A DNA stretch of 22,999 bases from a virus. Below the pieces are notes generated by a model, which searched no databases, was not told where the DNA came from, and saw only the letters and a program-made list of their open reading frames with translations. The stretch spans positions 1-22,999 of the IMG/VR virus record IMGVR_UViG_3300042502_001580, one strand, 5' to 3'. The first letter of the stretch is position 1. The number at the start of each line of letters is the position of its first letter. This document shows positions 1 to 6,264 of this stretch, piece after piece. Position numbers and translations under genes: made by a program.

Positions 1-761
1 TTTACTGATGGGTGTGGCTGATAAAATATTATGCGTGCCTCTTTAGGGTCAAAGTCCCATAGAGTGCTGTCAAGTATTAGCTCAGGCTTCATGGTAATGG
101 GCTCACGTTTAACTAACTTTATAGCGTCCATAATATGATTTCTATATATGTGGGCGTTACCAAAATAAAACTTTAGCTTACCTAGATTTAAACCACATTC
201 TTTAGCTAGTAAGTGAGTTAGGCCTGCATAGACTATTAAGTCATAAGGAAGACCTAACATAATATCAACGCTACGCATATAGACTACGCAGCTTAGTTCG
301 CCTTCATGTATATTAAATTGGGCTGTTATATGACAGGGCGGCAATGCCATTTTATGCAAGTCAGCTGGATTCCAGGTAGACAAAATATGCCTTCTTGAGT
401 AAGGGTTTTCTTTTAAGTTTGCTACTAACTCTTGCAATTGGTTAGTCCCGTTAAAGTTTACCCATTGAGCGCCATATATTGGTCCTAAGTTATCGTCAGT
501 ACCAACACCTTTAGTAGAGTTCCAATAGTTACAACCAAGTTCAGAGAACTCTTTTTTTGAGGTAGCGCCTTTTAAGAATGCTGCCAGTTCACCAAATGCT
601 TGCTTGTAATCAATTTTCCTTAATGTAACAATAGGGAATTGGTCTTGTAAATCAATTTCTATGCTTTCGCCAAATTTAAAAATAGTGCCAACTCCGGTTC
701 TATCTGGGCTAACTTGCGCTAAATCTAAAACACGGTTTATTAAATCTTTATATTGCTTCAT
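1..761 (-). CDS. Thymidylate synthase family enzyme, probably dCMP-specific hydroxymethylase (3' end missing)
   Basis: About 253 codons are present before the gene runs off the left edge. All main thymidylate synthase landmarks can be read: phosphate-binding DRTGVGT near residue 21, IYGAQW, the SRRHIL arginine pair, the catalytic cysteine in LPPCH (Cys143, E. coli Cys146), MRSVD (Arg163) and AHIYRNH. The family transfers a one-carbon unit from methylene-tetrahydrofolate to the pyrimidine of a deoxynucleotide in the cytoplasm. The residue that reads the pyrimidine edge (E. coli Asn177, in GLPFN) is Asp174 here, in GLPYD; Cys143 to Asp174 is the same 31-residue distance as in E. coli. Asp at this site is known from T4 dCMP hydroxymethylase, and Asn-to-Asp synthases prefer dCMP. 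I infer dCMP as substrate; hydroxymethyl versus methyl product cannot be settled. The start has AAGGA 8 nt upstream and overlaps the DUF6378 gene by 14 nt. Confidence 0.88.
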   Translation of the reverse strand, partial: MKQYKDLINRVLDLAQVSPDRTGVGTIFKFGESIEIDLQDQFPIVTLRKIDYKQAFGELAAFLKGATSKKEFSELGCNYWNSTKGVGTDDNLGPIYGAQWVNFNGTNQLQELVANLKENPYSRRHILSTWNPADLHKMALPPCHITAQFNIHEGELSCVVYMRSVDIMLGLPYDLIVYAGLTHLLAKECGLNLGKLKFYFGNAHIYRNHIMDAIKLVKREPITMKPELILDSTLWDFDPKEARIIFYQPHPSV

Positions 762-1017
762 TTGAAAGATCCTTATAAACTAAGGTTGCATAACCAGCTA
801 TGTCTAACCAATGATCCGGCTCATGTGGATTACCGCATGTTATTCTTGAAATCTTGTGCATAATCATATCAAGAGCTTCCCTTTGTACATGTGTCATACT
901 TTCATAGCTATTGGATCTTTTTACAACTCTTTTTAGTCGTTGTGAATCAAAAGCATTTTCAGCAAATGAACCATGCGTTGAACTTCTTTCAGCTAATGTA
1001 AAATCTATTTTATTCAT
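748..1017 (-). CDS. DUF6378-like small phage protein
   Basis: An 89-residue protein with the pattern AERSSTHGSFAENA near the N-terminus, a central helix around REALDMIMHKISRIT, and the C-terminal block HWLDIAGYATLV. HGxFxxNA followed by DxWxDIAGYAxL is what I recall for DUF6378, a family common in tailed phages and of unknown function. No catalytic motif is evident. The start is preceded by GGAG at 8-9 nt spacing. The gene overlaps the start of the downstream thymidylate-synthase-family gene by 14 nt, so the two are probably translated from one message. A terminator-like hairpin lies just upstream (1048-1079), so they may have their own promoter or depend on read-through. Confidence 0.75.
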   Translation of the reverse strand: MNKIDFTLAERSSTHGSFAENAFDSQRLKRVVKRSNSYESMTHVQREALDMIMHKISRITCGNPHEPDHWLDIAGYATLVYKDLSNEAI

Positions 1018-1528: not shown

Positions 1529-3601
1529 CTAAAATTTTTTCGTTTTAAAATAACGTCCAATTAAGAAATTCAAAAGCGCATCTTTGTTGTATTTATCATT
1601 AAAGAAGATTGCTCTATTTATTAGAACAGTGGGTCGTAAATTGATTTTATCAGGCCAGGCATCAGTAGGGCTGAAGTGCATTTGACCTCTTGTTACGTCC
1701 CAAGGGCCATTTACAAAGCCATATTGTTTTATTTTTCGTGCAAAGAAAGTGGGGGAATACTTTTCATAAGGATAATTTTTAATAAACAACTCATATTCAA
1801 GCTTAGGCACTATATATTGTAGGTCTAGTAGTTCATTCTTTATGTAATGATCCATTGTATTTTCTAATGCTTCAGCCATATCCAACTTTGATTTACCAGT
1901 TGGTGCAACCTGCGTGCCATCATAGCCATTTAAGTCCATGTTTAAGTAATGATACAACAGCGCACTACGGGCCTCGGGAGTATTAATCCAAGACTTTAAT
2001 TTACTAGCATCAGCCCAAAAGTCTCTTAATTTAGTAGACAATGGCGAATAGCCTGGTATAGCGTAGACCAGCTCTCTACGTGAAGTTGCGTCAAGCTGGT
2101 GAGTATAGTTTTCGTTAGTAGTTATACAGTATAAAGCATAAGTTTTTGTTGTATATGGCTTCATATACTTCTCATTAACTGTAATGGTATGCGAAGTAAC
2201 TAAGTCTTTTAGTAAGTTTGTATGGCGCTCTCCCTTTTCACCTATCTCATTAAACACTACAAGACTTTTGTTAGCTATTACGCCATTAAAGTTATTATCC
2301 AGGTTTTGCGCTGAAGTTACAAGCGCGTGGTTTGGCCTATGGTCTACTGGTGCTCCTTTCATTGAACCATTTATTATAGCCGCAAAGGTCTCAAAGTAAA
2401 ACGATTTACCAATACCTGTTAAGTCAGACCTAAGTATAGGCAGCCTATCTTGTTTAATCCAAGGTTTTTGTAGCATAAGGGCCATTGTTTGCTCAAAATG
2501 AAGCTGAATTTCTGGCTCGTCGCTAAAAAATAAGTTTACAAAGTCTACCCATAAATCTACGTCGCCTTTAACAGGTTGCGTATTAAACCCTTTCCATAAA
2601 TTAACCAGGCTTTTGTCTGTTATTCTAGATAATGTTGAGGGTTCATAAACATGGCCATATACTGAGGTTCTGTCTAAAGAATTTAAAAACTTGGTAATTG
2701 GCGTTACTTTGTCTTCGCCTGATACATTTGGGTCAATTGGATTTGAGCAGTTTTGTTCTTGTATAGCAAACTTTGTTCTTGTTAGTACATCGCCGGTATT
2801 TAAGTCGATCAGATCGCCTTCATATACTGCCCATTTAGATAGCAAGTAATTTTCGCCATCTTTTTTAGTTGGCATGTAAGGCAGTGCTTGTGCCATTAAA
2901 GGTTCTAGTCTTTCGCCACTTTGTAAATAATCATCGAGGCCTATTTTAATATTGCTACCACCTTGCCCAAGTCTTATAAAGAATACATTAATGCCTCTTA
3001 TTTTTAGGAAAGCTGCTAGTCTTAATTCAGCGCGCCTAACTGCTTCTTTAGGCTCACCGTTAAGCATTCTATCTGAGGGGTCAAAATCATAGCAAATATA
3101 AACATCTTTATTGTAAGGTAAATGGCTTAGTGGTGCTAATAGCACTCTATCGTCATTGAATATATTAGTTAAAGAATCTACACCACCAAGACCTACTGTG
3201 TCGTAGCCATTTAAATGTCCTGATAGTGCTTTAAACTCGCCTTCAGTTATAACCAAAGGTCTTGTTATGTCATTAAGATTACGTTTGAAGTTTTTATTTG
3301 GTGGAAGATAGGCTTTAACTGGACTCCGTGGTGGCTGATGATATTTATTACCAGCAAAAGAACCTAGAAATCTATATCTAAAAAAGTTAGTAGCTTTGCC
3401 ATTAATGTCAAAATACTGTATCTTAATTGCGCCAGTGCCTTTAGAAAAGCCTATTTCCTGGGTAACATCAATATTGTTAAGCAATGATAACCCATAAGCC
3501 GCTGGGTCTTTTATGCCCAGGTCTATAAGGCGTTGATCGTACTCATCTGAGGCTTGTGTAAATCCTGCTGCTGAAGCTTGCGACGTAAATGTAGGACCCA
3601 T
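1529..3601 (-). CDS. Primase-helicase (TOPRIM-like DUF3854 region plus SF3-type helicase)
   Basis: A 690-residue replication protein. Residues about 113-225 look like a TOPRIM-type primase region: LVITEGEFKALSGH (Glu120/Glu122) then VYICYDFDPSD with the DxD pair Asp172/Asp174, resembling DUF3854. Residues about 380-520 form a superfamily-3-type ATPase resembling DUF5906: Walker A variant SDLTGIGKS (Lys399), Walker B SLVVFNE (Glu452), sensor TTNE (Asn496) and arginines at 508-509. No N-terminal zinc finger is visible. It should prime and unwind the phage DNA at the fork. The start ATG overlaps the stop of a 25-codon leader ORF (TGATG), so initiation is probably coupled to it. The domain layout supports a combined primase-helicase as in many podovirus-like and satellite replicons. 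Confidence 0.88.
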   Translation of the reverse strand: MGPTFTSQASAAGFTQASDEYDQRLIDLGIKDPAAYGLSLLNNIDVTQEIGFSKGTGAIKIQYFDINGKATNFFRYRFLGSFAGNKYHQPPRSPVKAYLPPNKNFKRNLNDITRPLVITEGEFKALSGHLNGYDTVGLGGVDSLTNIFNDDRVLLAPLSHLPYNKDVYICYDFDPSDRMLNGEPKEAVRRAELRLAAFLKIRGINVFFIRLGQGGSNIKIGLDDYLQSGERLEPLMAQALPYMPTKKDGENYLLSKWAVYEGDLIDLNTGDVLTRTKFAIQEQNCSNPIDPNVSGEDKVTPITKFLNSLDRTSVYGHVYEPSTLSRITDKSLVNLWKGFNTQPVKGDVDLWVDFVNLFFSDEPEIQLHFEQTMALMLQKPWIKQDRLPILRSDLTGIGKSFYFETFAAIINGSMKGAPVDHRPNHALVTSAQNLDNNFNGVIANKSLVVFNEIGEKGERHTNLLKDLVTSHTITVNEKYMKPYTTKTYALYCITTNENYTHQLDATSRRELVYAIPGYSPLSTKLRDFWADASKLKSWINTPEARSALLYHYLNMDLNGYDGTQVAPTGKSKLDMAEALENTMDHYIKNELLDLQYIVPKLEYELFIKNYPYEKYSPTFFARKIKQYGFVNGPWDVTRGQMHFSPTDAWPDKINLRPTVLINRAIFFNDKYNKDALLNFLIGRYFKTKKF

Positions 3602-4424: not shown

Positions 4425-4802
4425 TTACCCTCCAATGCCGTGATGTTTTTCAGCGAAATCAACACCTGCCCAATAACTATACGGGTGTATGGCTTTATCA
4501 TCAGCTTTAAACCCGTTTGATATTTCTATGCCAGTTATAGGCTCAGATTTTACTGGCGGTGCTGTGTAGAGCGGTATTGGTTCTTTAATAGAATCATGCT
4601 CTTCCAGGTAATGTTTTTTATCCATACATACCCATTCACTAAGTTTTCCATAAATTTCTGTTTCAATTATCCAAGCCACAGGCTCTTGCTCTTGCTCAGG
4701 TTGGGCGAGGAGTTCTTTAGTTTCTTCAAGAAGGCTTGTATTAACAGCACGCCCAATACACTCAATTAACCACTTCTTCAACAGCTCTCTTTCTTTACTC
4801 AT
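4425..4802 (-). CDS. Phage accessory protein with QEPVAW...LYTAPP module (short paralogue)
   Basis: A 125-residue protein: MSKERELLKKW at the start, a spacer helix, then QEQEPVAWIIETE ... IPLYTAPPVKSE, then a segment ending SYWAGVDFAEKHHGIGG. The EPVAW-to-LYTAPP module is common in phage accessory proteins, including Ea22-like ones, with no known biochemical role. It shares its first eight residues and its HGIGG end with the gene at 4799-5548, so the two are duplicated or recombined copies. It overlaps that gene by 4 nt (ATGA). The final GGA GGG codons form the ribosome-binding site of the next gene. Confidence 0.7.
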   Translation of the reverse strand: MSKERELLKKWLIECIGRAVNTSLLEETKELLAQPEQEQEPVAWIIETEIYGKLSEWVCMDKKHYLEEHDSIKEPIPLYTAPPVKSEPITGIEISNGFKADDKAIHPYSYWAGVDFAEKHHGIGG

Positions 4803-5548
4803 TCCCCACCTCCAATGCCGTGTGCTTTTTCTATTGCTCTTGCAAATGTAAAAATATCCTCAACCACATTATCCCCATAAAGTTTACACAATTCTTCTAA
4901 ACTTAAAGGCTCACGTTTTGGTGGCGCTAGAAAAAGAAGGTCGTTATTTTTTATAGGCAAGTCCCAAATATTAACCGCATCACTTAGCACTACCCCTGTT
5001 ATAGCCACTGGTAAATTCTCGCCGTCTGCGTGAATACTGGTAATTTTAACCACAGGCTCTTGCTCAGATTTTACTGGCGGTGCTGTGTAGAGCTTTAATC
5101 GATCAACAACATCAGCTCCAGTGTGTCCATCAAACTCAAACAATGCTTTTTCTACTTCTTGTATAGAAAACAAATCCCAATCTTTTGCTTCGTAGTGGTT
5201 ACTGATTTGCCCTTGAGGAAGGGTAGCAACCACAATGAACCAACCACCACCAAAGCATAATTCTCCATCATTGTGTCTCCATGATTTGTGAGTATGGCAT
5301 TTGCCAGTTGCTCCCCACTCGTTAAATAACGCCACGTTGTATGCTTTGCGAAATTCATACAGCTCTTTAAATGTGTGATAACCGTCTGATGTATTTTCAT
5401 CAATCGCCACAGGCTCTTGCTCAGTCTTCTCAGGTTGGGCGAGGAGTTCCTTTATTCTTTCTGGTAAATCTCCACAATGCTCAATGTTAAGTCCTAGCGG
5501 ATCAAAATATTCTAAAACTTCATTTAGTAGCTCTCTTTCTTTACTCAT
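4799..5548 (-). CDS. Phage accessory protein with two EPVA...APP modules
   Basis: A 249-residue protein starting MSKERELLNEVLEYF. It contains two modules: EQEPVAIDENTSDGYHTF ... LKLYTAPPVKSE and EQEPVVKITS ... LLFLAPPKREP, then a C-terminal helix ending EKAHGIGGGE. The beginning and end match the 125-residue neighbour, but the middle differs, as expected from recombination between repeated ends. No enzymatic motif is visible. Probably a non-essential host-interaction protein of the Ea22-like kind, which is inference. It overlaps the upstream gene by 8 nt and the downstream one by 4 nt. Confidence 0.7.
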   Translation of the reverse strand: MSKERELLNEVLEYFDPLGLNIEHCGDLPERIKELLAQPEKTEQEPVAIDENTSDGYHTFKELYEFRKAYNVALFNEWGATGKCHTHKSWRHNDGELCFGGGWFIVVATLPQGQISNHYEAKDWDLFSIQEVEKALFEFDGHTGADVVDRLKLYTAPPVKSEQEPVVKITSIHADGENLPVAITGVVLSDAVNIWDLPIKNNDLLFLAPPKREPLSLEELCKLYGDNVVEDIFTFARAIEKAHGIGGGE

Positions 5549-5768
5549 CTTTCTTCTCCTTCTCTGCTAACATTGCGTCTGCCATGTCGTATGACAACTC
5601 TGCAATGCTTTCATTATCCCAAATTACTCTTACATCAGCTGCCATTAACTCTTGCATTGCAAGTCCTGCAAAGTGGTCTCGTAGTGCTTCTTGTCTATTT
5701 ATAAGTGAAGCATTTTGATTTTGTAGCCACATGATTTGTTGCTTAAGATCATTTATTTCTTTACTCAT
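5541..5768 (-). CDS. Small conserved phage protein (DHFAGLAMQ...ADAMLAE type)
   Basis: A 75-residue protein with an N-terminal coiled coil (MSKEINDLKQQIMWLQNQN), then RDHFAGLAMQELM, and the C-terminal motif IAELSYDMADAMLAEKEK. The pairing of an R-D-x-FAG-x-A segment with ADAMLAE is widespread in small phage proteins of unknown role. It starts like the two module proteins downstream (MSKE), and its final codons supply GGAG for the next gene, which it overlaps by 8 nt. Confidence 0.72.
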   Translation of the reverse strand: MSKEINDLKQQIMWLQNQNASLINRQEALRDHFAGLAMQELMAADVRVIWDNESIAELSYDMADAMLAEKEKKDE

Positions 5769-6264
5769 TCTCCGCCTCCAGTTCTTTTATAAAATTAGGC
5801 ACTTCACGACTTTTCCAACTAAACAAATTGCATTTAGCTCCTTTATAATAGTTTTTATAGGCTTGTATTGAGTCGCCTATAATTTTGTATTCATCAGGCA
5901 TTGCTTGAGTAGGCTCTGTAAAATTGCAAGTTGGTATACTTATAGGTGCCAGTCTTAAAGCATGTAATAAGCCTGATGACTGTACTTTGTGAGTTTTTTT
6001 ATACCGGTAGGTATACTCACAACATAAGTCTACTAATAAATCATATAGCCAAAAGTAATTTTCACATGATTGCCTGGCCCACACTGCTGATGGGTGATTA
6101 ACATGTGTCGCCTTATAAAAAAGACTATCTTCGGGTACGTTATTAAGAACACGGTGCGTAGTGGAAAGCAGTTGCGCGTATTCTAATATCATTTTAACAA
6201 CATGCTTGTCAACATGCATTTGAGCACATTCTTCAGTGTCATGACTAAGATAAAATATATTCAT
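5761..6264 (-). CDS. Conserved phage protein of the MNIFYL...CAxxHxDKHVVKM family
   Basis: A 167-residue protein. Strong features: MNIFYLSHD at the start, CAQMHVDKHVVKMILEYAQ (residues about 13-31), ATHVNHPSAVWARQS, then TEPTQAMPDEYK and a final YYKGAKCNLFSWKSREVP. The Cys, His, Asp and Lys of CAxxHxDKH and the His-Pro pair look like an active or metal site. I recognise the family as common in phages but not its activity; some databases label similar proteins as DNA-repair glycosylases and I cannot confirm this. I start at 6264 because its ATG overlaps the upstream stop (TAATG) and GGGGGA lies 5 nt before it; another in-frame ATG lies at 6276. Confidence 0.75.
   Translation of the reverse strand: MNIFYLSHDTEECAQMHVDKHVVKMILEYAQLLSTTHRVLNNVPEDSLFYKATHVNHPSAVWARQSCENYFWLYDLLVDLCCEYTYRYKKTHKVQSSGLLHALRLAPISIPTCNFTEPTQAMPDEYKIIGDSIQAYKNYYKGAKCNLFSWKSREVPNFIKELEAENE

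Follow-up and report, generated by a model that had tools for sequence, protein, structure and literature searches.

A phage thymidylate-synthase-family protein with aspartate at the Asn177 position is a candidate dCMP C5-methylase

The window analysed here, a 22,999-base IMG/VR fragment from a virus of bacteria, ends in a gene for a thymidylate synthase (TS)-family protein that carries Asp at the position of E. coli ThyA Asn177. Sequence comparison makes it probable, in our judgement, that this protein is a phage dCMP C5-methylase in which the Asn to Asp change accompanies a 5-methyl-dCMP product, and that 5-methyl-dCTP would enter the phage DNA as in phage Xp12.

The specificity residue and the predicted product

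The TS gene is located at 3..761 on the minus strand and encodes 253 residues, of which residues 2-252 match PF00303 (E 9e-77). It is cut by the contig end, and its last ~6 residues and the stop codon are beyond the window edge. In the relative L002, the TS locus of the 40,146-base genome G001, the missing C-terminus reads KFELNL; these absent residues matter for the choice between methyl and hydroxymethyl. The catalytic Cys143 (codon at 333..335, minus strand), which corresponds to E. coli Cys146, is followed by His144, the counterpart of His147. The intact catalytic cysteine and TS-family fold described in the earlier note are thus borne out.

Asp174 is encoded by a GAC codon at 240..242 on the minus strand, 31 residues after Cys143, and the same spacing separates Cys146 and Asn177 in E. 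coli. MAFFT alignments with E. coli ThyA, T4 gp42, SPO1 gp29 and the TS of phages AXL1 and DLP4 place Asp174 in the Asn177 column, as had been claimed. The same column holds Asp179 of T4 gp42 and the Asp of both AXL1 and DLP4 TS; Asn177, the feature of a canonical dUMP-specific ThyA, is absent from the window protein. In the L002 TS, 96% identical in the alignment and 93% by tblastn, residue 174 is likewise encoded by GAC, and a comparison of the two genes counts 38 synonymous against 10 non-synonymous codon differences. Asp174 is therefore not a sequencing slip, and the surplus of synonymous changes indicates that the TS is under purifying selection.

A comparison of the L002 TS with E. coli ThyA shows 39% identity, with the catalytic and most substrate residues kept. 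The differences are Asp for Asn177, Trp61 to Ala, Asp81 to Asn, Trp83 to Thr, Gln165 to Met and Asp205 to Asn, and, on the phage side, a dCMP deaminase and a MazG as neighbours. An ordinary dUMP thymidylate synthase that merely tolerates Asp would explain why the remaining substrate and folate residues, His147 included, are almost all ThyA-like, and the adjoining dCMP deaminase would supply its dUMP. However, each of 80 cellular TS taken from genomes of bacteria and archaea is Asn-His, and Asp is conserved across the clade of the window TS at 40-53% identity in a distinct gene neighbourhood. Furthermore, as cited in PMC8670742, the Asn to Asp change alone makes a TS favour dCMP and form 5mdCMP. 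An ordinary thymidylate synthase is thus very unlikely.

The published signature of hydroxymethylases consists of an acidic residue three positions before the catalytic Cys and a Ser or Thr two positions before the catalytic Tyr, and T4 gp42 additionally has no C-terminal tail (PMC6400193). The acidic residue is Asp145 in T4 dCMP hydroxymethylase and Leu140 in the window TS. At the position of Ser94 no Ser or Thr is found, since Pro-Ile precedes the Tyr96 equivalent (Pro-Ile-Tyr). The L002 protein ends in HPSVKFELNL, the same length as HPGIKAPVAI in E. coli ThyA. The features for hydride transfer are kept, namely Leu at E. coli position 143, read from the window, and a full-length C-terminal tail, read from L002 only. 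Because the signature is absent, the predicted product is 5-methyl-dCMP and not hydroxymethyl-dCMP; other things being equal, hydride transfer should take place and 5-methyl-dCMP be formed, as by the Asn to Asp mutants of TS cited in PMC8670742. The earlier note had proposed either product, a choice that narrows here to the methyl one.

T4 gp42 belongs to the same family and also has Asp at the specificity position, and the dCMP deaminase and MazG-like partners found here parallel the dCMP deaminase and dCTPase of T4, so that a T4-like enzyme making 5-hydroxymethyl-dCMP deserves consideration. We nevertheless find it quite unlikely and rejected it as first choice, given the missing signature. 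Leu stands in place of Asp or Glu before the Cys, Ser or Thr is missing before the Tyr, and the relative keeps a tail that gp42 lacks; gp42 and the L002 TS are 21% identical. In addition, no sugar- or carbamoyl-transferase gene is seen near the TS, and the sole glycosyltransferase (GT)-like ORF of the relative is in its tail module. Asp at the acidic position is found elsewhere among Asp-type TS, in 9/10 loci of the Asp-Thr group.

Gene neighbourhood and known clusters

Gene order is conserved between the window and G001 over the TS and the genes next to it, at ~84-91% DNA identity. In G001 a dCMP deaminase (PF00383, 1.4e-19) adjoins the TS without a gap, and then come a PRA-PH/MazG-like pyrophosphohydrolase (PF01503, 1.7e-13), DNA polymerase A and a helicase. 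HAE and PCxxC motifs are read in the deaminase, and acidic motifs of the EExxE type in the MazG-like protein. Based on this conserved order (synteny ~90%), we infer that dCMP deaminase and MazG genes come next in the genome of the window, immediately beyond the contig end. The statement that partner genes are outside the window is thus true, as the contig ends there, but incomplete, since a dCMP deaminase and a dCTPase-like MazG/PRA-PH protein are directly downstream in L002. A T4-type dNMP kinase (PF21448), the lack of which counts against the methylase reading, was found neither in G001 nor in the clade contigs, with a model that also missed AXL1 and DLP4. No ThyX was found in the clade contigs, no second TS in the genome of L002, and no DHFR beside the window-type TS gene.

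On the other side, a DUF6378 protein of 89 residues (748..1017, minus strand; PF19905) is directly upstream of the TS and overlaps its start by 14 bp; in relatives, too, it immediately precedes Asp-type TS. It is predicted with high confidence as a four-helix protein (pLDDT 95.7) without a significant PDB match. The idea of a second MazG-like pyrophosphohydrolase found no support, as profile comparison gave a probability of 0.4% and the four-helix model had no significant match in the PDB. Further upstream is a DUF3854/DUF5906 primase-helicase-like replication gene (1529..3601, minus strand).

At 1185-1189 of the window ~130 bases are absent relative to L002 (5695-5822), and the junction shows an overlap of 5 bases. 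Where L002 encodes a 152-residue protein (5454-5912), the window has a frameshifted ORF of 91 residues (1150-1425). Two small ORFs at 4425-4802 and 4799-5548 both begin with MSKEREL and have ELLAQPE stretches in common, a local duplication. A mosaic relative of 37.8 kb (G009; L509, L510) has virion genes up to 97% identical to those of the window and lacks the TS, the PRA-PH and the G001-type replication genes. In the tail module of G001, the GT-A-like ORF (L016:745-1539) carries a DPDVIFW motif and is accompanied by cupin-like and acetyltransferase-like ORFs; it has no Pfam or PHROG match and is found at one other locus only. Axeltriavirus AXL3, by its PolA one of the nearer isolate relatives, has a thymidylate-synthase-complementing protein and not this TS.

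This type of cluster, with TS, dCMP deaminase and pyrophosphohydrolase, is already known from close relatives of Xp12. Xp12 has 5mC in its DNA, and AXL1 is resistant to cytosine-sensitive restriction enzymes (PMC9206674, PMC7653180). Our comparison with the Xp12 type (Xp12, MT664984) was made through its relatives AXL1 and DLP4 (Bosavirus), in which DHFR, dCMP deaminase, an Asp-type TS and a pyrophosphohydrolase are side by side. Asp177 and the position of the TS by a dCMP deaminase and a PRA-PH pyrophosphohydrolase are common to both lineages. In contrast, the AXL1 TS is 28% identical, has Pro147 and Asn143 and is beside DHFR, whereas the window TS has the backbone of a canonical ThyA, with His147 and Leu143; the two are not sisters on the tree.

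In MetaGPA, Asp177 and the same Pfam domain set are associated with modified cytosine (PMC8670742). Like the TS of those modified contigs, the window TS has Asp177, and the PRA-PH, dCMP deaminase and MafB19-like deaminase domains are all matched here. Unlike them, no carbamoyltransferase is seen and His147 is kept; position 147, one of two marker positions in MetaGPA, differs in modified contigs (PMC8670742).

Asp-type and Asn-type TS in viral contigs

Two scans of viral contigs gave at least 119 Asp loci and at least 120 Asn loci by the TS motif, all encoding TS. Of the 119 Asp-type TS listed, 57 have His at position 147, 43 have Tyr, 10 Thr and 5 Phe, so that the His147 of the window is matched by nearly half of them; among the Asn-type matches listed this residue is His wherever the position is covered. 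On a tree of 127 rows, built with the column in question left out, the Asn/Asp label changes at least 8 times, and all of these changes are forced by starred branches. The window lineage, represented by L002, clusters with L034, L068 and L102, all of them Asp, on a starred branch with a support of 96. One closely paired couple, L134 (Asp) and L171 (Asn), differs at position 177 with starred support of 100; both TS genes are beside DHFR and without MazG, which makes them a natural pair for a residue switch. In G003, G004 and G005 (L010-L015) the TS genes are interrupted at residue ~168, within the conserved active-site region, by an insert that is probably an intron or intein.

A scan seeded with the clade recovered seven Asp-His loci, including the four named above, with a dCMP deaminase adjacent in 7/7 and DUF6378 beside the TS in 6/7. 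A second scan, seeded with DUF6378 only and run without regard to the TS residue, gave 14 TS as neighbours, of which 12 are Asp; the loci of these two scans are related and not independent samples. Three Asp-Thr loci near DUF6378 carry the acidic hydroxymethylase residue.

A MazG-like gene is found within 1.5 kb of the TS in 96/119 Asp-type and 0/120 Asn-type viral loci among the matches listed. This count used a profile grown from the same loci, which is a possible bias, and the control was therefore repeated with Pfam's own models. In 40 whole Asn-type contigs, PRA-PH was over the cut-off in none, and MazG was found in nine, never within 1.5 kb of the TS. Independent Asp/Asn pairs number five, and MazG agrees in 1-2 of them and opposes in none, too few for significance; the association of MazG with Asp rests on few evolutionary switches. 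Five MazG-like neighbours adjoining Asp-type TS (L019:1806-2606, L030:9025-9897, L048:4066-4878, L062:6776-7558 and L074:7413-8252) were checked by Pfam. All have a C-terminal MazG/PRA-PH domain and belong to a large viral lineage, and two of the five (L048, L074) also have an N-terminal GIY-YIG-like T5orf172 domain. Judging from their superfamily, proteins of this kind would hydrolyse dCTP.

DHFR is needed for folate recycling after methylation. It is near the TS in 3/119 Asp-type and 56/120 Asn-type viral loci (L019-L257) among the matches listed. Its absence here and its rarity beside Asp-type TS speak against a methylase. The rarity could stem from the size of the genomes or from an altered folate balance in Asp-type phages, and it would also be expected of a hydroxymethylase, if tetrahydrofolate is not oxidised.

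Taken together, the dCMP specificity advanced in the earlier note is well supported by the identity of the column, the repeated changes of this residue on the tree, the MazG-like, dCMP deaminase and DUF6378 genes that accompany it, and the MetaGPA results (PMC8670742).

Proposed pathway and virion DNA

In the pathway that we favour, the Asn177 to Asp change would have made dCMP the pyrimidine substrate in place of dUMP, with the hydride-transfer machinery of TS kept. The MazG/PRA-PH pyrophosphohydrolase would convert dCTP to dCMP, and the TS-like enzyme would turn part of the dCMP pool, with methylene-tetrahydrofolate, into 5-methyl-dCMP. Another part of the dCMP would be deaminated by the dCMP deaminase to dUMP, for the formation of dTMP by the host thymidylate synthase. 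In the phage DNA, 5-methyl-dCTP would then replace some or all of the dCTP, in a manner like that of Xp12, and the cytosines of the virion DNA may thus be modified.

The same enzymes could also be arranged differently, with 5-methyl-dCMP made by the Asp-type TS and deaminated directly to dTMP, so that the virion DNA would contain ordinary cytosine. In every clade locus the TS gene overlaps the dCMP deaminase gene or directly adjoins it, the genome of L002 has neither a second TS nor ThyX, and such a route is chemically possible, as dCMP deaminase accepts 5-methyl-dCMP (PMC12088426). However, relatives of Xp12, a phage with 5mC, have the same three genes, and T4 also has a dCMP deaminase. A dCMP deaminase is also beside Asp-type enzymes with the hydroxymethylase signature residue (L403, L407, L379), and most Asp-type viral TS among the matches listed have no neighbouring deaminase. 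A MazG that hydrolyses dCTP would better fit a replacement of the pool. We therefore consider direct deamination to dTMP unlikely.

The observed/expected ratio of C-containing six-base palindromes is 0.69 in the window and 0.73 in G001, compared with 0.54 in T7, 0.89 in AXL1 and 0.95 in T4. This avoidance is nearer to that of unprotected phages, a point in favour of direct deamination to dTMP, and the counts do not suggest full protection of the window or G001 DNA. Restriction-site avoidance as a sign of modified DNA finds no support, since the palindrome depletion does not differ between Asp- and Asn-type contigs (Mann-Whitney p 0.62).

As a dCMP C5-methylase, the window enzyme would represent a further lineage whose almost canonical ThyA seems to have been turned into a dCMP enzyme, with the predicted product narrowed to 5-methyl-dCMP. 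The switch between Asn and Asp is repeated in viruses and accompanies a MazG-like neighbour. A single residue together with a single neighbouring gene can thus point to phages in metagenomes that are candidates for modified cytosine.
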